A stretch of 34,274 bases of DNA from an uncultured Brachyspira sp. (GTDB lineage: Bacteria; Spirochaetota; Brachyspiria; Brachyspirales; Brachyspiraceae): assembly GCF_944390845.1 (NCBI RefSeq), contig NZ_CALXRM010000032.1, forward strand, positions 1 through 34,274, in the 5' to 3' direction. How positions within the stretch are numbered: position 1 is the stretch's first letter; every line of letters begins with the position of its first letter. The notes beneath the pieces were generated by a model. It was not told the origin of the DNA. It saw only the letters and a list, made by a program, of their open reading frames with translations, and did not search any database. This document shows positions 5,250 to 30,998 of this stretch, piece by piece. Made by a program: the position numbers and the translations under genes.

Positions 5250-5484
5250 CTTACTATTCCTTATAATAATATATTAATGCCTTATATTGTACATTTATAG
5301 TATAAAAAAAACAATATTTTTTGGCTATTAATTTATAATTTTATTAACTATTTGTAAAATATAAGGTTATATATTAGGTATAATAATATTTAGACAATTT
5401 TTTATTTATTTGACGATAATATTTAATTAGCTATTGATTTTATAATATTATTATACTATATTTATGCAATGGAAGATTTTTAAA

Positions 5485-6777
5485 ATGCAGAATGTAAAAA
5501 TGAAACAAAATATATTAATTATAGATGATGAAGAAGACATACTCACAACTTGTCAAAGTATATTAGAAGATGAAGAATATGAAGTAGATATAGCTAAAAA
5601 TAATGATGAAGCTCAAAAAATTTTAGAAAGTAAAAATGTTAATTTAGTATTTTTAGATGTATGGCTTCCAAATGTAGACGGACTTGATATATTAGCTCAT
5701 ATTAAAGAAAAATATCCATCTACTTATGTTATTATGATGAGCGGACATGCTGGCGTTGAAACAGCTGTAAGAGCTACTAAAATGGGTGCTTATGATTTTT
5801 TAGAAAAACCTATAAGCATATCTAAATTATTATCAAGCTGTGATGAAGTTTTTGAGGAGCATGCTAATAATAATATTGATGCTGAATCTCCTCATAATGA
5901 AAATATAAATAAAAAATCTGAATGCAAATATAAAGTACCTCAAAGAACAATAGCAAAAAGTGTTGTTGTTGGAGGCTTTGCATTAATGGAAGGCAGAAAA
6001 ACTGCTTTAACTCTAGTACCGGCAGAGGTAAACACCGGTATAGTATTTATTGATATTAATACAAATACTCATATAAAGTTATCACCTGAAAATATTTTAT
6101 CAAAAGATAAATCAGGTGCTGTTAATTCTACTGCTTTGGTATCTGGAAATAGATATATAAAAACAACAGAGCATTTTTTAGCAGCGCTTCATATGATGGG
6201 AATAACTAACTTGATAGTAAAATGCGATGGTGAAGTTCCTAATGTTGATGGTTCTGCTTTAGTATTTTGCGATGCTTTAAAAGAAGCTGGTTTTGTAGAA
6301 CAAGATGATTATATAGAGCCTATAGTTATAGATGAAACTTTAACTTATGGAAATGTTAACGATAATGAAACTTATATAATACTTTCGCCTTATGACGGAC
6401 TTGAGGTAACTTTACGTATAGATTTTGCTGGCAGTATAGGCGTACAGCAGTATACATACAGATTTGAAAATTTTGACCAATTTACTCAAGAGGTTGGAAG
6501 AGCTAGATCTTTTAATACTATAGATAATATTGATTATGCACAAAAAATGGGTATGGCTGGAAGCGGTATGATAGGAAGTCATATACTATTATGTGATGGT
6601 AAAGTAATAAATACTAAATTGCATTTTGACGATGAATTTGTAAGGCATAAAATTTTAGATATAATTGGCGATTTATATATATTATCAAGACCAATAAAAG
6701 CTAAAATAATAGCTAATAAATCATCACATTCTTTTAATCACTCTGTTGTGCATGATTTAGCAAACAGGTATTTATAA
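5485..6777 (+). CDS. lpxC: Receiver domain-LpxC fusion (UDP-3-O-acyl-GlcNAc deacetylase)
   Basis: Two domains. Residues about 8-120 are a CheY/NtrC-like receiver with the acidic pair D14 D15, phospho-acceptor D58 in VFLDVWLPNVDG, S86 in MMSGHAG and K108 in LEKP, so it looks fully competent. After a hydrophilic linker (about 125-150), residues 152-430 are LpxC, with zinc and catalytic residues kept: E229 H230 (TTEHFLAALH), H388 and D392 (FVRHKILDIIGD) and H415 (KSSHSFNH). LpxC catalyses the committed step of lipid A synthesis. I chose ATG 5485 because GGAAG lies 8 nt before it; ATG 5464 and ATG 5500 are alternatives. The sigma factor gene follows 46 bp downstream. No DNA-binding domain is present. 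Confidence 0.9.
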   Translation: MQNVKMKQNILIIDDEEDILTTCQSILEDEEYEVDIAKNNDEAQKILESKNVNLVFLDVWLPNVDGLDILAHIKEKYPSTYVIMMSGHAGVETAVRATKMGAYDFLEKPISISKLLSSCDEVFEEHANNNIDAESPHNENINKKSECKYKVPQRTIAKSVVVGGFALMEGRKTALTLVPAEVNTGIVFIDINTNTHIKLSPENILSKDKSGAVNSTALVSGNRYIKTTEHFLAALHMMGITNLIVKCDGEVPNVDGSALVFCDALKEAGFVEQDDYIEPIVIDETLTYGNVNDNETYIILSPYDGLEVTLRIDFAGSIGVQQYTYRFENFDQFTQEVGRARSFNTIDNIDYAQKMGMAGSGMIGSHILLCDGKVINTKLHFDDEFVRHKILDIIGDLYILSRPIKAKIIANKSSHSFNHSVVHDLANRYL

Positions 6778-6823: not shown

Positions 6824-7681
6824 ATGGCAGATAGCAGACTAAAACAGAATACTACAGAAGAACAAAATAATATATCCTTATATTTTGCTGATGCTAAGAA
6901 AGAAAAGCTATTAACCCGTGAAGAGGAAATAGAATTAACTAAAAGGCTTAAAGAAGGAGATGCAGAGGCAAGGTCTAAACTTATTAGAAGTAATTTAAGA
7001 TTTGTTATAACTATTGCAAAACAATATAAAAATAGCGGTTTATTATTAGAAGATTTAATAAGTGAGGGAAATTTAGGTCTTATAATAGCTGCTGACAGAT
7101 TTGATCCTGATAAAGGTTATCATTTTATATCTTATGCAGTATATTGGATTAGGCAGAGTATATTAAGAGCTATTAATGAAAAATCAAGGCTTATAAGACT
7201 TCCTCTTAATAAAGCTATGGATTTAGTAGATTTAGAGCGTACTGTACATCAATACTATTATAAAAGCGGATATACTCCTGATGTTAATGAACTTGCTGCC
7301 ATCTTAAATAAAGATCCTAATGATATACTTCATATTATGTCTATGAGTACTGAACATGTTTCTCTGGAAGGAGAATATAATTATGATGGTATGAAAGACA
7401 GACTTATTGATACTATAGAGGATAAAACATCTAAAAATGTTGAAGAAACAGCTATAAATAAAGAACTTATGGAAGAATTAAAAACTGCAATAGAAGGTTT
7501 ATCGGATATAGAAAAACAAATTATCAATGCCAGATATGGTATAGATCAGGAAAGAAAAACTCTTAAAGAAGTTGGAGAGATGTTCTCTTTCACTAAAGAA
7601 CGCATTAGACAAATAGAGAAAAAAGCACTGAGAAAAATGCATTCTCAAAAATACAGTTCTTTAAAAGATTTCTTAAAATAA
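6824..7681 (+). CDS. RNA polymerase sigma-70 factor (group 1/2, no region 1.1)
   Basis: 285 residues. Region 1.2 (ISLYFADAKKEKLLTREEEIELT), region 2 (NLRFVITIAKQYKNSGLLLEDLISEGNLGL, then FISYAVYWIRQSI), region 3, and region 4 with the helix-turn-helix TLKEVGEMFSFTKERIRQIE are all present. It lacks region 1.1 and the long non-conserved insert of large RpoD proteins, resembling the short primary-like sigma factors of Bacteroidetes or RpoS-like group 2 factors. Whether it is the main or an alternative sigma factor cannot be told here. It is probably co-transcribed with the receiver-LpxC gene 46 bp upstream. Its Shine-Dalgarno is weak. Confidence 0.9.
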   Translation: MADSRLKQNTTEEQNNISLYFADAKKEKLLTREEEIELTKRLKEGDAEARSKLIRSNLRFVITIAKQYKNSGLLLEDLISEGNLGLIIAADRFDPDKGYHFISYAVYWIRQSILRAINEKSRLIRLPLNKAMDLVDLERTVHQYYYKSGYTPDVNELAAILNKDPNDILHIMSMSTEHVSLEGEYNYDGMKDRLIDTIEDKTSKNVEETAINKELMEELKTAIEGLSDIEKQIINARYGIDQERKTLKEVGEMFSFTKERIRQIEKKALRKMHSQKYSSLKDFLK

Positions 7682-10006: not shown

Positions 10007-11107
10007 TTATGAAGGATTAAGTATTTTATAAATATATTTTTTGTATCCAACTTTATAGCTTACTTCAAAATTGCTTGGCCTTCCAGATTTTCCAATATAA
10101 TTTATAGTTACATTATAGTCTTTTACTTTTTGTCCGGATTCTATGAATTTTTTTATATCTTGTTCCATTTTACGCCATTGTCCGCTTCTATTAAGCTGAC
10201 GGTTCATAGGTACTAAATTATCTATATCAGGAGAACCTCCAAATTCTCTTGCTATTAAATGTCCGCCGTCATCAGTAGTTTTTCCTAAATTTTTGACAAC
10301 TTCTCTTTGTTTATATCCAAGTCTTAAATTATCTTTTGTGTATTTTAATTCTTTTGCGGATACTTGTTTTAAACGTCCTAAATCATCTGTTACTACGGTA
10401 TGACCTTTGCTATTAACTCTTGTAGCATTTTTGATTAAAGCATTTTTTCCATTGACATTTTCTATAAAAGTTTTTTTAAGATTATGTCCTTTTATAGCTC
10501 CAGCTGTAGCACCAGTTATTGCTCCCCACATATATCCTTCAGCAGAACCTTCTATTGCATATTTAACAGCATCTTTATTTATAGGTTTTCCGCTTTTTAT
10601 TGTTTCTATTGCAGTATTTAAAATTCCTCCTATAGCAGCACCTATAAATGCTTCTTTTAAAGCCTCTTTTGATGAAGCGGCAAATACAAATGATATATAT
10701 GCATTTCCTGTTCCAGCAGCAGTAAAAGAAATTACTCCTGTTACTGCTATTATACCAGTACCTATTGCAAATTGAGTTCCAACTTTTTTCCAATTTACTT
10801 CTTTTAGAATATCAGCATAATCAGAATTATTTATTTCATTTTCTAAATTTCCGTCTTCTATTACTATAAAGTCTAATTCTTCTATGTTGCCGTTTTTAAT
10901 TGTACTATCTATTATTTCAATGTCTTCAGTAAAGATATTTTTTATCTCATAGTCTTTTATTTCAAAATCTTTTAATTTTATATCTTCTGTTTTATAATTT
11001 TGTATATCATAATTTTCTAATTTATAATCTTCTATTTCATAAGAATATATTAGATTATTTAATAGTAGTATTGATAATATAGTTAATATAATTTTTTTGA
11101 ATAACAT
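10007..11107 (-). CDS. Secreted polymorphic toxin with C-terminal DNA/RNA non-specific endonuclease domain
   Basis: 366 residues. Residues 1-22 are a signal peptide. Residues 23-80 are an acidic low-complexity repeat of short units such as YEIEDYKLENYDIQNYK. Residues 108-210 are Gly/Ala-rich and hydrophobic, like the pre-toxin segments of polymorphic toxins. The C-terminus matches the Endonuclea_NS_2-type nuclease seen in LXG toxins: GGHLIAREFGGSPDIDNLVP (catalytic H283, with N297 and N302), then LNRSGQWRKME and a final beta region (VTINYIGKSGRPSNFEVSYKV). The natural target is probably nucleic acid in rival cells. No immunity gene is recognisable on either side. Repeat copies B and C flank it, and copy C could supply the promoter. 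AAAGG lies 6 nt before the ATG. Confidence 0.8.
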   Translation of the reverse strand: MLFKKIILTILSILLLNNLIYSYEIEDYKLENYDIQNYKTEDIKLKDFEIKDYEIKNIFTEDIEIIDSTIKNGNIEELDFIVIEDGNLENEINNSDYADILKEVNWKKVGTQFAIGTGIIAVTGVISFTAAGTGNAYISFVFAASSKEALKEAFIGAAIGGILNTAIETIKSGKPINKDAVKYAIEGSAEGYMWGAITGATAGAIKGHNLKKTFIENVNGKNALIKNATRVNSKGHTVVTDDLGRLKQVSAKELKYTKDNLRLGYKQREVVKNLGKTTDDGGHLIAREFGGSPDIDNLVPMNRQLNRSGQWRKMEQDIKKFIESGQKVKDYNVTINYIGKSGRPSNFEVSYKVGYKKYIYKILNPS

Positions 11108-20549: not shown

Positions 20550-23474
20550 ATGCAGTTACAATTTACAGAACAAAAATATCAAGAAGAATGCATACGCAAT
20601 ATAATATCAATATTCAATGATTTGAAAGAAGGATTTGGCTTTGAGTATGCATTAAATCAATGTATTAAGCAAGAGAAAATATCTAATAATAAAAACATAG
20701 ATATATTGATGGAAACAGGTACTGGAAAAACCTTTACATATATTAAAACTATGTTTGAACTTAATCATAATTTCGGATATAACAAATTTATTATATTAGT
20801 ACCATCTTTAGCAATAAGAGAAGGTACTAAAAAAAATTTTGAGATAACAAAAGACTATTTTAAATCTATATATTCAAATTTCAGAGAAAGAGAGATAGAT
20901 GTTAATATATACGATGGTTCTATATCTGTTATAGAAAGATTTTTAAATGATGATAATTTTTCAGCATTAGTATTAACTCCTCATTCTTTTAATAGTCAAG
21001 ACAAAAAATTAAATAGATTAATAGAAAAAGACTTATTTAATAAAGAAGGAAAAACTTATCTTGATGCCTTAAAGAATATTAATCCTATTATCATTATTGA
21101 TGAACCGCATAAATTTGCTGGTGAAGCATTCTATAAAAATTTTAGAGGATTTAATAATTATTTTTTGAGATTTGGGGCCACTTTCCCAAAAAGTAAAGAT
21201 AAAAAAGATCATATAGTAGAACTTTCAAATATAGCATATAAACTCGATGGGGTATCATCATTCAAAAAAAACTTGGTAAAAAAAATTACAGTATATTATA
21301 ATGAAACTTCCAACAATAAAGATATAATTTTATCTATAGAAAAAGATATAGTAAAAATTAAAAGCAATATTAATAGTGAAATTATTTATAAAGATTTAAA
21401 AGTAGGAGATAAATTTAACGGTGAAGAAATAATAAAAATAAATTATGAAAAAAAAGATAGTAAAGAGTCTAATATAATATTATCTGATGGAGAACAATAT
21501 TTTGCTGAATATTTATTAGAAGAAGATAATATACGATTTATGATAAAAGAAAGTATAGAACTTCATTTTGAAAAAGAAAAAAAATTATTTCTTAAGGGGA
21601 TTAAGGCTTTATCATTATTTTTTATAAGGTATATTGCAGAATATAGAAGAGATTTAGAAGATGCAGAAAAATATACAGATATAAAAAAGATATTTGAAGA
21701 AGAATATAAAATAATTAGAGAAAAAATTATAAATGAAATAAAAGATAAGGAAGAATATAAAGAGTATTTAAAATATTTAGAAAATGACTATCAAGACGGA
21801 CAATTAAAAGTTCATGAAGGATATTTTTCAGGCGATAAAGGAAATGATGATGAAAAAATAAGAAAGGGAGTAGATTTAATATTAAAATCAAAAGAAAAAT
21901 TATTATCATTTGAAACACAGACTAGATTTATATTTTCTGTTTGGGCATTGCAGGAAGGCTGGGATAATCCTAATGTATTTACTATTTGCAAATTAAGCAA
22001 TAGAGGAAGCCATACTTCAAAAATACAGCAGGTTGGAAGAGGATTAAGAATATGCGTTAATCAGAAAGGTGAAAGATTAACTATAGATACATTCAAAGAT
22101 AAAAATAGTTTTTGGAATATTAATAATTTAGATGTAGTTGTTTCAGGAGATGAGGCAGATTTTATTGAAAGCTTACAAAAAGAAATTGTTGATAATTCAT
22201 CGGTTTTGTATGATGAGTTTACAAGAACAGATTTAAACAGCAGGTTACAGGCTAACAATATAGAAACTAATATACGTAAGTTTGAAAAGTTTTTATTAAA
22301 TTATAATTTAATAATAGATTTAGAAAAGGTTGATGATAAAGGACTTGATATTTATAAAAAAGCAGATGACTATTTTAATAAACTTTCCGAATTAAAAAAT
22401 CAAATTACAGATAAAGAAGAAAAATTAATGCTTGAATATGCTTATAAAATTTTTGATGAGGATATGGAGCATTATATTACAAACGGAAATAAATTAAGAG
22501 AAAGAAAAAATATAAAAATAAAAAATGAAAAAATAGAAGATTTTAAAAAGTTATGGGATTTTATATCTAAAGAAGCATATTATTATATAAATGAGTTAAA
22601 TGAAAAGAATGAAGAAATATTATTAAATTCTATAATAGAAAAAATCAACAAATTGGATGTAGAAATAAAATCTCTTAAAACAATAAAATTAATTTGGGAT
22701 ATAGACAATTTAGAAAAGGATAATTCTATAAATAAAGAAATATTATCTTCTCATGAGTATAGAGAAAATATTGATTATGTATTTTTAGCTAGAGAATTAG
22801 CAGAAAAATCCAAAATGCCAATATCGTTTATAGTAAAAATATTAAACGGTATAAATAAAGAATTAAAAGAAAAAATAGAAAGCAATATTAATTATGCTAA
22901 GGCTGAAATATTATCTATAATAAAAAATGCTTTAATAGGAGATATGAAAACACTTATTGAATATAATTTTGTAGATGGTAAAATAAAGCCTAATATAATG
23001 TATGATAAAAAAGGAAATTTCAAAAATGAATTAGAAGCTGGAAGTCTTGGAAAGAATCAGGAAAAAGCAGATAATTTTAGTTTAAAGGAAGAATGGATAT
23101 TTGAAGACATTATAGAATATGACAGCATGTTTGAAAGAAGTATAATACTTGATGATCCAAAAATAAAGAATATAAAAATATTTGCTAAAATGCCAAAACT
23201 TTCAATACCTACACCTTTAGGCAATTATAGTCCTGATTTCTGTTATGCAGTAGAAAGAGAAGACAGCAAAAAAATATTTTTAATAGTTGAAAGCAAAGGC
23301 TATAATACAGAAGAAGACATACCAGCAGATGAAAAGTCAAAAATAGATTTTGCCTATAGGTTTTTTGAGAAACTAAATAAAAATAATTCAAGTGATGTAA
23401 AAGTGTACTATAAAAAAAGAATAAATAAATCACAGCTTTATGATATGATAGAGGAGGTAATAAAAAATGACTAA
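20550..23474 (+). CDS. res: Type III restriction enzyme Res subunit
   Basis: 974 residues, the usual size for Res. The superfamily 2 helicase core has Walker A ETGTGKT (55-61), motif II DEPH (184-187), and motif VI QQVGRGLRI (about 493-501). The C-terminal nuclease is PD-(D/E)xK: SPD (D896) and VESKG (E914, K916). Catalytic residues look intact. Res uses ATP to communicate between two head-to-head unmethylated sites and cuts about 25-27 bp away, but only as a complex with Mod. The next gene encodes Mod and overlaps by 8 bp. The order res-mod is the reverse of EcoP1/EcoP15. Confidence 0.93.
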   Translation: MQLQFTEQKYQEECIRNIISIFNDLKEGFGFEYALNQCIKQEKISNNKNIDILMETGTGKTFTYIKTMFELNHNFGYNKFIILVPSLAIREGTKKNFEITKDYFKSIYSNFREREIDVNIYDGSISVIERFLNDDNFSALVLTPHSFNSQDKKLNRLIEKDLFNKEGKTYLDALKNINPIIIIDEPHKFAGEAFYKNFRGFNNYFLRFGATFPKSKDKKDHIVELSNIAYKLDGVSSFKKNLVKKITVYYNETSNNKDIILSIEKDIVKIKSNINSEIIYKDLKVGDKFNGEEIIKINYEKKDSKESNIILSDGEQYFAEYLLEEDNIRFMIKESIELHFEKEKKLFLKGIKALSLFFIRYIAEYRRDLEDAEKYTDIKKIFEEEYKIIREKIINEIKDKEEYKEYLKYLENDYQDGQLKVHEGYFSGDKGNDDEKIRKGVDLILKSKEKLLSFETQTRFIFSVWALQEGWDNPNVFTICKLSNRGSHTSKIQQVGRGLRICVNQKGERLTIDTFKDKNSFWNINNLDVVVSGDEADFIESLQKEIVDNSSVLYDEFTRTDLNSRLQANNIETNIRKFEKFLLNYNLIIDLEKVDDKGLDIYKKADDYFNKLSELKNQITDKEEKLMLEYAYKIFDEDMEHYITNGNKLRERKNIKIKNEKIEDFKKLWDFISKEAYYYINELNEKNEEILLNSIIEKINKLDVEIKSLKTIKLIWDIDNLEKDNSINKEILSSHEYRENIDYVFLARELAEKSKMPISFIVKILNGINKELKEKIESNINYAKAEILSIIKNALIGDMKTLIEYNFVDGKIKPNIMYDKKGNFKNELEAGSLGKNQEKADNFSLKEEWIFEDIIEYDSMFERSIILDDPKIKNIKIFAKMPKLSIPTPLGNYSPDFCYAVEREDSKKIFLIVESKGYNTEEDIPADEKSKIDFAYRFFEKLNKNNSSDVKVYYKKRINKSQLYDMIEEVIKND

Positions 23475-25341
23475 AAAGGAAGAATTTGAAAAGCAAGGAT
23501 TTGAGGTAATAGAGGGCAGAGAAATAATAGACGAAGAACAAAATAATCTTTTAGAGTTTTTAAAAAATAATTATCCTTCTATCTATAAAAACAGTGAAAT
23601 AAATATTGAAGAATTGAAAAGAGTTTTAAATAGCAAGTCAGCAATAGCCTATAAAGAAAATGGATACGGTTTAAACTTCATAGGCAGAAATTTGGCAAAA
23701 GCTAAATATAGACAAAAAACAGAAAAAGAATTGAGTATAAATGAAAAATTAAGTAAGAATTTTGATGAAACAGAAAACATCATAATAAAAGGCGATAATT
23801 TAGACTCATTAAAGATATTAAAAAAATACTACAGCAGTAAAATAAAATGCATATATATAGATCCTCCTTATAATACAAATTCAGATAATTTTTTATACCC
23901 AGATAGATTTGATAAAGAAGAACTTGAAGCATTAGGACTTCAGGATATAGGCAAAGAAGAATATGACAGAATGGAGTTTATATTCAAAAAAAGTAAAAAA
24001 TCCCATAACGGCTGGCTTACATTTATGTATCCTAGATTAAAATTAGCAAGAGATTTATTAACAGATGATGGAGCCATTTTTATAAGCATAGATGATAATG
24101 AACAAGCTAATCTTAAACTTTTATGCGACGAGATTTTCGGTGAAGATAATTTTATAGTTTGTGCTATAAATGAAACAGTAAAAATTAGAAAAAATTCTGC
24201 TAAATTTTTTTCTATGTCTCATGATTATGTTTTGATATATTCAAAAAATAAAGAATTATGGGATAGAGCATTAATAAAAAGAAAAGATTTATCAGGTTAT
24301 AAAAATCCAGATAATGACCCAAGAGGACTTTGGATTTCAATTCCAATATATGCCAATCACCATTATGATGCTGATTATAAAATAACAAAACCTAATGGCA
24401 TTATTTTAGAAAAACCTAAGAATCAAAGTTGGAGATTAAGTGAAGAAAATTTCAAAAAGCATGTAGAAGAAAATAGAATTTATTGGGGAAATGGAGATAG
24501 TTATCCAACTATAAAGAGATTTTTAACAGATGTACAAGATGGTTTAGTACCACGATCAATTTTTTATTATGATGAAACAGGAGGTAATCCATTAGGAGAT
24601 AAAAAATTAAAGGAATTATTTGATGATCTTAAAGTATTTGAAAATCCAAAATCTAATGATTTAATAAAAATCTTATTGAATATTAATAATTGTCAAGATG
24701 ATGATATAGTCCTTGACTTTTTCGCTGGGTCTGGCACTACTGCACATGCTGTGATGGAGCTTAATGCTGAAGATGGAGGAAACAGAAAATTTATTCTTTG
24801 TCAGATTGATGAGGAAATTAAAAAAGAAAAATCGGCTGCTTATGATTTTTGTATTGATAATAACTTTGTGCCTGTTATTTCTTCAATTACTGTTGAACGT
24901 GTTAATAGGGCTGGCGATAAAATACTTAAAACTTTAAAAGAAAGCAATGATATGTTTGATGATAAAAAAATAGATATAGGATATAAAGTTTTTGATTTGC
25001 ATGATGTCAATATTGAAAAAGAAGATGAAAACAAGCAGATTATACTTTTATTAAATGGAGTAACTGATTTAAGCAGAATATACAATATGATTATTAATAT
25101 CGGTTTAAACTCTCCAGTTTCTAAACTTACACCTATTATAGAAAATTGTGCTTATATGATAGAAGAGGATAATATAAAAAGGTATTATATTACCAATTCT
25201 GAAATTCTTATAAAAAATGATGAGAACAAACAGAAATTTAAAGATATGATAGAAAGCGGTATGGTATATATTGATGGCTGGACTGTTACCATTAATGTTT
25301 CTTTACAGCAGTATAAAGATAATGTAAAAATTGTTTTATAA
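23467..25341 (+). CDS. mod: Type III DNA methyltransferase Mod subunit
   Basis: 624 residues. Motif IV DPPY (132-135) precedes motif I FAGSGTT (419-425), the beta-class order of type III N6-adenine methyltransferases. The region between (about 200-400) should hold the target recognition domain and so sets site specificity for both methylation and cutting. A strong Shine-Dalgarno GAGGAGG lies inside the end of res, 9 nt before the ATG, so the two genes are tightly coupled. No long simple repeat of the phase-variable mod type is seen, only A runs of 7-8 in keeping with base composition. It ends 1 bp from the convergent thiD. Confidence 0.93.
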   Translation: MTKKEEFEKQGFEVIEGREIIDEEQNNLLEFLKNNYPSIYKNSEINIEELKRVLNSKSAIAYKENGYGLNFIGRNLAKAKYRQKTEKELSINEKLSKNFDETENIIIKGDNLDSLKILKKYYSSKIKCIYIDPPYNTNSDNFLYPDRFDKEELEALGLQDIGKEEYDRMEFIFKKSKKSHNGWLTFMYPRLKLARDLLTDDGAIFISIDDNEQANLKLLCDEIFGEDNFIVCAINETVKIRKNSAKFFSMSHDYVLIYSKNKELWDRALIKRKDLSGYKNPDNDPRGLWISIPIYANHHYDADYKITKPNGIILEKPKNQSWRLSEENFKKHVEENRIYWGNGDSYPTIKRFLTDVQDGLVPRSIFYYDETGGNPLGDKKLKELFDDLKVFENPKSNDLIKILLNINNCQDDDIVLDFFAGSGTTAHAVMELNAEDGGNRKFILCQIDEEIKKEKSAAYDFCIDNNFVPVISSITVERVNRAGDKILKTLKESNDMFDDKKIDIGYKVFDLHDVNIEKEDENKQIILLLNGVTDLSRIYNMIINIGLNSPVSKLTPIIENCAYMIEEDNIKRYYITNSEILIKNDENKQKFKDMIESGMVYIDGWTVTINVSLQQYKDNVKIVL

Positions 25342-26176: not shown

Positions 26177-26884
26177 TTATTTTAATTTTTCAGAATATTT
26201 ATCATATATAAATTTACATATTAATTTAGTATTAAATGCTGATAAGTCCTCAAATTTTCCAATATATTCATTGCCTATTTTTTCTGATATACTTATAGAA
26301 AAATTTATTTTATAAGCATTGATAGCCATAGAAGCATTTTTTATAATATGTCCAATTTCTAGGCTAGCTTCTTCAGGAGGCATAATAAATTTTAAACCTA
26401 CAGGGGACATTTCTATTATCATACCATGCAGTATCTGTCTTACACCATCATGTCTGAATACAAGTTTAAAATTATCCAAATTGTTTATAACTATATGTTT
26501 TAATTTTTTAGGTTTAATATTGGCTTTTTCTAATAATAAATTAAATCTATTTAGAAAATCTTTTTCATTAAAAGGTTTTAATAAGAAACCGGCAATTCCT
26601 ATTCTCATCATTTTGCTGAAAAATTCTTTGCTTGGCTCGCTTACATGAACTATTACATGCACACCGCTGTATCTGTCATCTAAATAAATTTTTTCAAGGA
26701 TATCAGCCATTTCAGAGTCCTTCTCATCAACTTCTATAATAGCCACTGTAAAAGGTAATTTACCAAACATAGGCAAAATACTATTTTTATCTTTCACAGC
26801 TACTACTTCATATCCTGCTGTTATAAGAATGCTTATAAGACTGTCTCTTGTTTGTAAAGATGAATCGTAAACTAATACTCGCAT
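26177..26884 (-). CDS. Pseudo-receiver with PilZ-like C-terminal domain
   Basis: 235 residues. Residues 1-118 fold like a CheY receiver (LVYDSSLQTRDSL start, LLKPF with K103), but the phospho-acceptor site reads AIIEVD, giving Glu51 instead of Asp, and only one N-terminal acid (D7) is kept. It probably cannot be phosphorylated and may sit in a fixed state. Residues about 135-230 look PilZ-like: R144 and R149, then EMSPVG (158-163) in place of D/NxSxxG. PilZ domains bind cyclic di-GMP; the variant motifs leave binding uncertain. AGGTGA precedes the ATG. It is divergent from the GH13 gene. Confidence 0.7.
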   Translation of the reverse strand: MRVLVYDSSLQTRDSLISILITAGYEVVAVKDKNSILPMFGKLPFTVAIIEVDEKDSEMADILEKIYLDDRYSGVHVIVHVSEPSKEFFSKMMRIGIAGFLLKPFNEKDFLNRFNLLLEKANIKPKKLKHIVINNLDNFKLVFRHDGVRQILHGMIIEMSPVGLKFIMPPEEASLEIGHIIKNASMAINAYKINFSISISEKIGNEYIGKFEDLSAFNTKLICKFIYDKYSEKLK

Positions 26885-28598: not shown

Positions 28599-30998
28599 AT
28601 GGAAGAGAGAAAATCAATAGACAGCTTTTTTTTAGATCTATCTATGGGGCTTCTTTTTGCTGAAAATACAAATGAGATAGATAGAGTTGTTGATTTGTTT
28701 TTAGAGAAAACTTGTCAATATTATGGTTTTGATTGCGGTGAGGTATATTTTCCTAAAGGAGATTATCTTATATTAAGAGGCGTATATGGTATAGATAGGT
28801 ACTATGTATGTAAAGTGGATTTTCATATAGAAGCCTCTCACTGTAAAGATGTATTATATGATCAAAAAATCTTTATAGGTGAAAATATTAATCATACAGA
28901 TATTGATGTGTTTTCAAATTATAGCTCTATGGCTGTTCTTCCTATATTCTTTTATGCAAATCCTATAGGTGTTATTGTTTTCAGAAATAAAGAAAATAAA
29001 ATAAATTTTTATGAAAGTATAGTTTCAGAGATAAAAAATGTTATAGGTCATTTTGCAGTATATGCTAATAATGTTCTTCAAAGTGTAACATATAAAGAAA
29101 GAGATAAGCAATTAAAGCTGCTTAGAGAATTATATTTAAAATTAAGCGATGTAGATGAATTTGAGAATAATTTAAATCATTTAGCTACAGATGTCGCTAA
29201 TATTTTCACTGCCAGTAAGGCTTTTATCAGACTTAGATATGAAAATAATAATTTATATACTAGATCAAGTTATGGTTTTCCGGAAGATTTTGATTACTCA
29301 ATATTTGAAGACGAGATTTATGTTGAGGAATATTGGGAAAATAATATATTTTTTGTAAATAATGTATCAAAAGATAAACATTATAAAAAATTTGAAGGGG
29401 TTATAAATAGATCTGTATTATTTAATAGAATACCAGTAAAAAAAGGCTGTATAGGGTATATTGTTGTTATAGATAAAATTCCTGATGCAGTTAATCCTTT
29501 AGGCGATTTTGATTTAGAGGATCTTAATTTATTTAATCCTTTGCTTGCCAATATATCAAGCAGAATTTCAGAGCATTATAATATAATAGAGTTAAGCAAG
29601 GCTAATGAGAAGAATTTAAAACATATGTCTCGTTTAAATACATTGTATGATATAAGTAATATTTTATTAGCCCGTTCTAAAACAGAAGATATATTATTTT
29701 TGCTTTTAACTATTACTACAATAGGAGATGTATTTGCTTTTAATAGAGCGTTTGCATTTCTTTATGATAAAGAGTTTAATGTATTTAGGGGACGTATGTG
29801 TGTTGCTCCGAAGAATGCACATGATGCAGGTATTATATGGAGTAATATGCAGAATTTAGAAAAATTTGCTTTAAGAGAGAAATTAATGCTTTCTTTTGAT
29901 AAAAGAAGTATGGAAGATGCTTGGGATTTGAATCAGAAATTCCTAAATACAGTTATACCAAATAATGAAAATTGTAAATTATTTTATGATGTATTTAATA
30001 ACAAAAACAGCATAAGTGTTATAAATTTGGATAATAATGAACTTGTAACTCAAATAAGAAAATATACAGATATATTTGGTGATTATCCTTTTGCTATTAT
30101 TCCTATAATGAATTCTGTTAATTGTATTGGTATGATAGTTGTAGATAATCCATATAATGGAAAGCCTATTCCTGAAGATGATCTTGATTATTTAAAGATG
30201 TTCGGCAGGCAGGCGGCTGTTGCTTTGGAATATTCTTCACTTTATAATGAAATGGAAAGAAATAACAATGCTCTTAAAGCAGCAGAAAAAACTTTACTTG
30301 ATTTAAAAAGTTTGGCTATAATAGGAGAGATGAGTTCTTCTATGGCTCATAACTTAAGAAATTTTATAGTTCCTATTGCAGGATTTGCTAATAGGCTTGT
30401 AAAAGTAAGTAAAGAGGAAAATATAAAGAATTATGCACAAATAATTGCTAATGAAGTAGAGAATTTGGAAAATTATTTGAGAAGGAATTTGTCTTTTGCC
30501 AAAAGTATTAATTTGGAAGTTGATAATATAAAAATAGATGACATGATAAAATATTTAACTATTCTTTCCAATGAATATATTAAAAAGAGCGGTAAGAATA
30601 TTAAATTTTATGCACTTAAGATGACAAAAGAGGAAGTTGTAAGATGGGATTATGACAGAATGAATGAAGTTGTGTTTAATCTTGTAATCAATGCTATAGA
30701 TGCTATAAATGACGGAGATAAAGATTCCTATATTAGTGTAATATTTGATGATAATGCTTATAGGGAATCTATGATAGATATAATAGTGGAAAATACAAAT
30801 TCGTATATAGAACCGGATTTAGCAGAGAAGATATTTACACCATTCTTTACTACAAAAAGTCATGGTGTTGGTATAGGACTTGCCATATCCAAGAGAATAG
30901 TTGAAGCTCATGGCGGAAGTATGGTTTTAAAAAGTGTTAATGATATTTTTAAAGTAACAACTTTTTTTGTTTCTATACCAGTTAGTTTAAATAATTAA
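28599..30998 (+). CDS. Cytoplasmic GAF-domain sensor histidine kinase
   Basis: 799 residues with no membrane helix. Residues about 1-165, 170-330 and 350-555 look like three GAF sensor domains. The kinase part has H584 in SSMAHNLRNF, N698 in the N box (FNLVINAIDAIND), the F box FTPFFTT and the G2 box GVGIGL (756-761). The G1 box, normally DxGxG, reads VENTNSYI, so that part of the ATP site is unusual. GGAAGG precedes the ATG. No receiver gene follows directly; the receiver-LpxC fusion and the pseudo-receiver are the only receiver proteins in this window. The GH13 gene ends 21 bp upstream. Confidence 0.88.
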   Translation: MEERKSIDSFFLDLSMGLLFAENTNEIDRVVDLFLEKTCQYYGFDCGEVYFPKGDYLILRGVYGIDRYYVCKVDFHIEASHCKDVLYDQKIFIGENINHTDIDVFSNYSSMAVLPIFFYANPIGVIVFRNKENKINFYESIVSEIKNVIGHFAVYANNVLQSVTYKERDKQLKLLRELYLKLSDVDEFENNLNHLATDVANIFTASKAFIRLRYENNNLYTRSSYGFPEDFDYSIFEDEIYVEEYWENNIFFVNNVSKDKHYKKFEGVINRSVLFNRIPVKKGCIGYIVVIDKIPDAVNPLGDFDLEDLNLFNPLLANISSRISEHYNIIELSKANEKNLKHMSRLNTLYDISNILLARSKTEDILFLLLTITTIGDVFAFNRAFAFLYDKEFNVFRGRMCVAPKNAHDAGIIWSNMQNLEKFALREKLMLSFDKRSMEDAWDLNQKFLNTVIPNNENCKLFYDVFNNKNSISVINLDNNELVTQIRKYTDIFGDYPFAIIPIMNSVNCIGMIVVDNPYNGKPIPEDDLDYLKMFGRQAAVALEYSSLYNEMERNNNALKAAEKTLLDLKSLAIIGEMSSSMAHNLRNFIVPIAGFANRLVKVSKEENIKNYAQIIANEVENLENYLRRNLSFAKSINLEVDNIKIDDMIKYLTILSNEYIKKSGKNIKFYALKMTKEEVVRWDYDRMNEVVFNLVINAIDAINDGDKDSYISVIFDDNAYRESMIDIIVENTNSYIEPDLAEKIFTPFFTTKSHGVGIGLAISKRIVEAHGGSMVLKSVNDIFKVTTFFVSIPVSLNN

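Follow-up and report, generated by a model that had tools for sequence, protein, structure and literature searches.

Does a two-component signal reach lipid A synthesis at the enzyme itself? The question is raised by a gene in a 34,274-nucleotide stretch of DNA from an uncultured Brachyspira sp. (contig NZ_CALXRM010000032.1 of assembly GCF_944390845.1; the whole stretch is called the window below), which joins a response-regulator receiver to LpxC, an enzyme that is essential in most Gram-negatives, marks the step at which endotoxin synthesis is controlled and serves as a drug target. The gene is a single continuous open reading frame (5464-6777, plus strand) for 437 amino acids (aa), in which a disordered linker connects an N-terminal receiver to an LpxC domain; the opposite strand is full of stops. 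Pfam found both domains in the one protein (Response_reg, residues 17-124, 9.6e-30; LpxC, residues 160-433, 1.7e-68), as an earlier sequence-only reading of the locus had proposed, and reported no AAA domain, no helix-turn-helix and no C-terminal FabZ domain, the protein ending after LpxC. Seen as an LpxC, it has a new control domain; seen as a response regulator, it has an enzyme for its output. We consider it likely that the protein forms the output of an NtrYX system that has been rewired: the NtrX-derived receiver would serve as its regulatory domain, the membrane kinase NtrY, encoded as an orphan elsewhere in the genome, would phosphorylate D65 of the receiver, and this phosphorylation would set LpxC output at the protein level, by way of activity, stability or location.

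Integrity of the receiver and of the enzyme

Residue numbers in the following features are counted from the start at 5464; those of the sequence-only reading are lower by 7.

5464..6777, plus strand: receiver-LpxC fusion gene, 437 aa from 5464, or 430 aa from the likelier ATG at 5485
5512..5835, plus strand: receiver domain (Response_reg), NtrX type
5524..5529, plus strand: acidic pair D21-D22 (Mg2+ site)
5656..5658, plus strand: phospho-acceptor D65 (W67, at D+2, is 5662-5664)
5740..5742, plus strand: switch residue S93
5806..5808, plus strand: K115
5842..5934, plus strand: variable linker, residues 127-157, of which 133-153 are predicted to be disordered
5941..6762, plus strand: LpxC domain (UDP-3-O-acyl-GlcNAc deacetylase), the only one of the genome
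6169..6174, plus strand: E236-H237 (catalytic Glu and zinc His)
6646..6660, plus strand: H395-K396 and D399 (zinc ligands and substrate Lys)
6727..6729, plus strand: H422 (catalytic His), followed by 15 residues and no E. coli-type C-terminal tail

The start at 5485 (M8), which the sequence-only reading had used, is the likelier one because it is preceded, at a distance of about 8 bases, by GGAAGA and because the orthologues begin at the equivalent position.

The complete receiver described from the letters alone was borne out. All five of its residues (D21, D22, D65, S93 and K115) are present, the phospho-acceptor Asp65 and Lys115 are kept in 58 of 58 alignment rows (57 distinct fusion genes), and omega between close relatives was about 0.06-0.12 for the receiver and 0.02-0.07 for LpxC, with values of 0.4-0.8 for the linker in six of eight comparisons. 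The receiver is under strong purifying selection, and its phosphorylation residues are invariant across phyla.

The enzyme is equally well preserved. The LpxC domain passed the cut-offs of two family models (PF03331, 231 bits, cut-off 27; TIGR00325 lpxC, 192 bits, equivalog cut-off 187.25) and matched solved LpxC structures by sequence and by fold (about 30% identity; template-modelling score about 0.80-0.93 over the target). The zinc and catalytic residues that had been listed earlier (H237, H395, D399 and H422) are all in place, together with E236, K396 and D403; six of these (E236, H237, H395, K396, D399 and H422, equivalent to E78, H79, H238, K239, D242 and H265 of E. coli) are invariant in 31 fusions, and the catalytic-loop Thr of Pseudomonas and E. 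coli LpxC (RTF; T191) is replaced by Ser349 (RSF). AlphaFold modelled two confident domains, the linker having a predicted local distance difference test (pLDDT) score below 50 at residues 133-153. No second, solo LpxC was found in the source genome (G+C content 26.4%), which leaves the fusion as its sole LpxC, and the genome also has LpxB. The fusion protein is predicted to have deacetylase activity. For B. hyodysenteriae, lpxA, lpxB, lpxC, lpxD and lipooligosaccharide have been reported, the fusion not being mentioned (PMC2650404).

Distribution of the fusion and its kinship to NtrX

What had been taken for a single odd protein turned out to be a member of a widespread, NtrX-derived family spanning at least four phyla. 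Our phylum surveys are samples, and the proportions are therefore rough. LpxC was found in 110 of 296 genomes of the spirochaetal phylum. In the order of the source, all 31 genomes with LpxC had one LpxC only, in frames of 427-458 aa apart from one that is cut by a contig end; domain content was verified in 22 of the 31 and in 3 genomes from two other spirochaetal families, so that the survey of spirochaetes suggested by the sequence-only reading recovered the fusion throughout the order and in two more families. The remaining spirochaetal LpxC genomes have mostly a solo LpxC of about 300 aa. Among Nitrospinota, 54 of 55 LpxC frames are at least 460 aa long, the remaining one being cut by a contig end. 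The deltaproteobacterial phylum of locus L052 has LpxC in 274 of 297 genomes; 59 of the 80 lower-scoring LpxC that were re-searched have frames of at least 418 aa (about a fifth of the LpxC genomes), and 24 fusions, L052 included, were verified by their domains. Of 297 Acidobacteriota genomes, 8 gave whole-fusion matches of 515-552 bits and the others stayed under 300 bits. One acidobacterial genome (G917) carries a fused LpxC alongside a solo one (C21:37736-38992 and C150:16112-16942), which makes it a natural test case or a case of contamination. Frames of 934-1354 aa at three deltaproteobacterial loci, which would read as kinase-receiver-LpxC proteins, were set aside: the extra N-terminus was taken as a spurious open frame, since at L166 and L167 ntrY sits in another frame.

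The response-regulator model that best fits the fused receiver is NF051870 NtrX, with 113.5 bits over residues 15-152, a match to the receiver part that lies below the 600-bit cut-off for a full-length NtrX. The fusion protein is not an NtrX, but on this evidence it appears to do the work of an NtrX receiver end. A tree that also held 38 NtrX receivers and the other receivers of the source genome placed every fused receiver with NtrX and apart from those others (Shimodaira-Hasegawa-like approximate likelihood-ratio test (SH-aLRT) support 87, from few alignment columns). A tryptophan at D+2 is present in 46 of 46 fused receivers and 29 of 38 NtrX, and in none of 14 other receivers of the genome.

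A longer form of about 700-780 aa occurs in most of the Nitrospinota examined and in some deltaproteobacteria. In it, receiver, Sigma54-AAA domain, AAA lid and LpxC follow one another without a helix-turn-helix; by its domains this form is an NtrX with LpxC in the place of the DNA-binding domain. One gene of this type (L164) has an in-frame TAG inside the receiver (a sequencing error, a pseudogene or recoding) and, as a gene additional to the 57 distinct fusions, is the one broken fusion that was met. The fused LpxC domains lie on one side of a branch that separates them from solo LpxC (SH-aLRT 99), and a single clade of fused receivers was not rejected (approximately unbiased test, p-AU 0.81). 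Several lineages have lost the AAA domain and kept receiver and LpxC joined. The gene probably originated when ntrX was fused to lpxC, giving receiver-AAA-LpxC, with the AAA domain lost later; the data are most simply read as one fusion event, followed by AAA losses and by transfer between phyla, and a repeated origin of the joining of receiver and LpxC is possible. The same link was also found in the form of an operon, with solo lpxC just upstream of ntrY-ntrX at four loci of deltaproteobacteria and an acidobacterium (L055, L056, L064 and L071), and a scan of named genomes with a receiver-peptide pattern returned mostly NtrX genes, with lpxC beside ntrYX.

NtrY as the probable kinase

In 12 deltaproteobacterial and Nitrospinota loci, covering both architectures, ntrY lies directly upstream of the fusion, and this gene order makes NtrY the probable kinase of the fused receiver. 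The source genome encodes an NtrY-like kinase of 599 aa on contig C81, with HAMP, HisKA and HATPase domains and the NtrY-type motif WREAAIKVAHEIKNPLMPI. It is the genome's best match to our NtrY alignment (308 and 304 bits for the two halves), in which the kinase is itself a row; an independent NtrY model gave 209 and 88 bits, and among NCBI models the kinase fits a Leptospira-named family best. We call it NtrY-like because a domain search of the kinase did not report NtrY_N (PF19312) or PAS for this shorter spirochaetal form. Convergent with this orphan ntrY lies a gene for a 118-aa weak receiver-like protein (L252:5439-5795; 23 bits), which was also seen in several relatives.

In spirochaetes without the fusion, ntrX directly follows ntrY in 16 of 18 cases, whereas in those with the fusion it does so in 0 of 15 and NtrY is an orphan (Fisher p 1.5e-7, kinship ignored). 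No NtrX-grade protein was found elsewhere in the spirochaetal fusion genomes, where the best genome-wide matches to the NtrX model reached 348-400 bits, compared with 431-483 bits for the ntrY-linked NtrX of other spirochaetes. The best match to the NtrX model in the source genome was rejected as an NtrX, being a regulator of NtrC type whose partner is an NtrB-like kinase. Domain make-up, conservation, kinship to NtrX, gene order and the loss of NtrX were seen directly; that NtrY phosphorylates the receiver and that this affects LpxC we infer.

Several observations weigh against the proposed reading. The ntrY of the source genome (C81) is unlinked to the fusion (contig C32), and some spirochaetes with a solo LpxC have NtrY too. 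Three further spirochaetal genomes have the fusion; two of them have divergent NtrY-like kinases, and in the third the match is short. On the kinase tree, the association between the fusion and the loss of NtrX amounts to about three independent contrasts; nearly all pairings are as predicted, and the sign test (p 0.25) cannot reach significance with only three contrasts. Finally, the AlphaFold model (predicted template-modelling score 0.74) has no trusted interface between receiver and LpxC domain.

It is possible, though less likely than not, that the receiver controls the amount or the place of LpxC and not its turnover number, through dimerisation, membrane attachment or protease capture that replaces a missing C-terminal degron. 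E. coli LpxC is controlled by proteolysis (PMC12444477), its FtsH degron being in the C-terminal tail (Fuhrer 2006, as cited in PMC3333781); the fused LpxCs have 1-13 residues past the domain, as against mostly 10-37 (median near 27) in solo spirochaetal LpxCs, which makes a degron of the E. coli type unlikely in them and fits such a replacement. The long disordered linker would suit tethering as well as allostery, but gene order gives no pointer to a protease or an adaptor.

That the phosphodonor is something other than NtrY, namely an NtrB-like kinase (C115), a GAF kinase (window 28599-30998), a Nudix kinase (C90) or acetyl phosphate, seems unlikely to us. The genome has about five non-chemotaxis kinases and its ntrY is unlinked to the fusion; however, the kinases on C115 and C118 have regulators of their own nearby, the neighbour of the fusion in other phyla is ntrY, and the receiver is NtrX-like where NtrY has lost its NtrX. 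Still less probable is a receiver that is its own output, serving NtrY as a phosphate sink or a partner-binding domain, with LpxC as a passive passenger: single-domain receivers are known to behave in this way elsewhere, but LpxC is always kept and is always the last domain, and where AAA was lost in several lineages the receiver and LpxC are still joined. A decayed receiver or an artefactual fusion is next to inconceivable, and nothing was found in favour of either. Omega between close relatives is far below 1, and the 57 distinct fusions, from several lineages, keep the residues, show none of the stops or frameshifts between the domains that the sequence-only reading had named as grounds for giving it up, and, with 20 verified Brachyspiraceae loci, rule out an assembly artefact or an inter-domain frameshift.

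Control of LpxC by NtrY through D65 remains the reading we prefer. The earlier idea of a phosphorelay acting directly on LpxC is plausible and has been strengthened in its first part, the receiver being complete, selected and invariant and a kinase, NtrY, being nameable from gene order; its second part, that phosphorylation may alter the deacetylase, stays conditional. Our guess, to which we give slightly better than an even chance, is that phosphorylation would restrain LpxC, because NtrYX lowers lpxC output in alphaproteobacteria. We are evenly divided over the fullest version, in which a kinase would directly phosphorylate the committed enzyme of lipid A synthesis as an on/off switch that arose once, when LpxC took the place of the DNA-binding domain of NtrX, spread over four phyla and replaced transcriptional control of lpxC by NtrYX.

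Among the kinases named above, the Nudix protein (L135:1480-3033, on contig C90 of the source genome) has 517 aa, with a NUDIX domain and a HisKA-HATPase kinase core, an unusual sensor design. No HisKA was recognised in the GAF kinase of the window, and nearby the other strand encodes a protein whose receiver match is sub-threshold (26177-26884). Next to the fusion lies one further gene:

6824..7681, plus strand: sigma-70 family factor gene, 46 bases downstream of the fusion gene, a neighbour kept in Brachyspiraceae

This gene adjoins the fusion in 19 of 20 Brachyspiraceae loci, whereas other fusion lineages lack this neighbour; co-transcription of the two is possible, given the common strand, the short distance and the conserved order. 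Elsewhere the window encodes a protein of the DNA/RNA non-specific endonuclease type with a signal-like N-terminus (10007-11107) and, at 20550-25341, a type III restriction-modification pair in which res (helicase-nuclease) comes ahead of mod (N6/N4 methylase).

Relation to known control of LpxC

Two-component control of lpxC transcription is known; a receiver fused directly to the LpxC enzyme appears to be new. In the literature searched, LpxC is controlled by proteolysis, binding partners or transcription only, and we found no description of a receiver-LpxC fusion, in agreement with the sequence-only reading, which knew of no characterised enzyme of this kind; a passing listing in an output-domain census or a domain database is possible. 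Derivation from NtrX ties the family to the known control of lpxC by NtrYX. In R. sphaeroides lacking ntrYX, lpxC mRNA rose about 9-fold and lipopolysaccharide about 2-fold, with no NtrX site at lpxC and an effect judged indirect (PMC7240162), and according to a review (PMC12444477) NtrYX of Caulobacter acts on lpxC alike, via transcription. As in these alphaproteobacteria, an NtrX-type receiver and an NtrY-type kinase are tied here to lpxC and the cell envelope, but NtrX there is a DNA-binding protein with a transcriptional effect, whereas the receiver of the fusion is covalently part of LpxC and has no DNA-binding domain. The Desulfovibrio vulgaris two-component regulator DVU2934, whose single mapped target is lpxC (PMC3333781), likewise differs in being a separate protein that acts on a promoter; in S. 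fumaroxidans, lpxC adjoins an operon orthologous to that of DVU2934 (PMC3333781).

As an enzyme, the fusion shares fold, catalytic residues and equivalog rank with other LpxCs (PF03331, TIGR00325), and departs from them in its N-terminal receiver, its missing C-terminal tail and, in Brachyspirales, the Ser in place of the catalytic-loop Thr. LpxC is also joined to a second domain in the LpxC-FabZ fusions of Bacteroidetes, Chlorobi and Verrucomicrobia (PMC3087551), but the partner there is a C-terminal metabolic enzyme and here an N-terminal signalling domain. CheB and PleD, too, are enzymes with an N-terminal receiver; the output in both is a signalling enzyme, in contrast to the biosynthetic enzyme of the fusion.

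A covalent receiver would make control of LpxC itself by a signal testable in vitro with two purified proteins. The fusion is, moreover, an independent hint from across phyla that NtrYX, whose signal and core function are unsettled, may at heart be a controller of lipopolysaccharide and the envelope, and for Brachyspira-type spirochaetes it suggests where the output of lipooligosaccharide is set.
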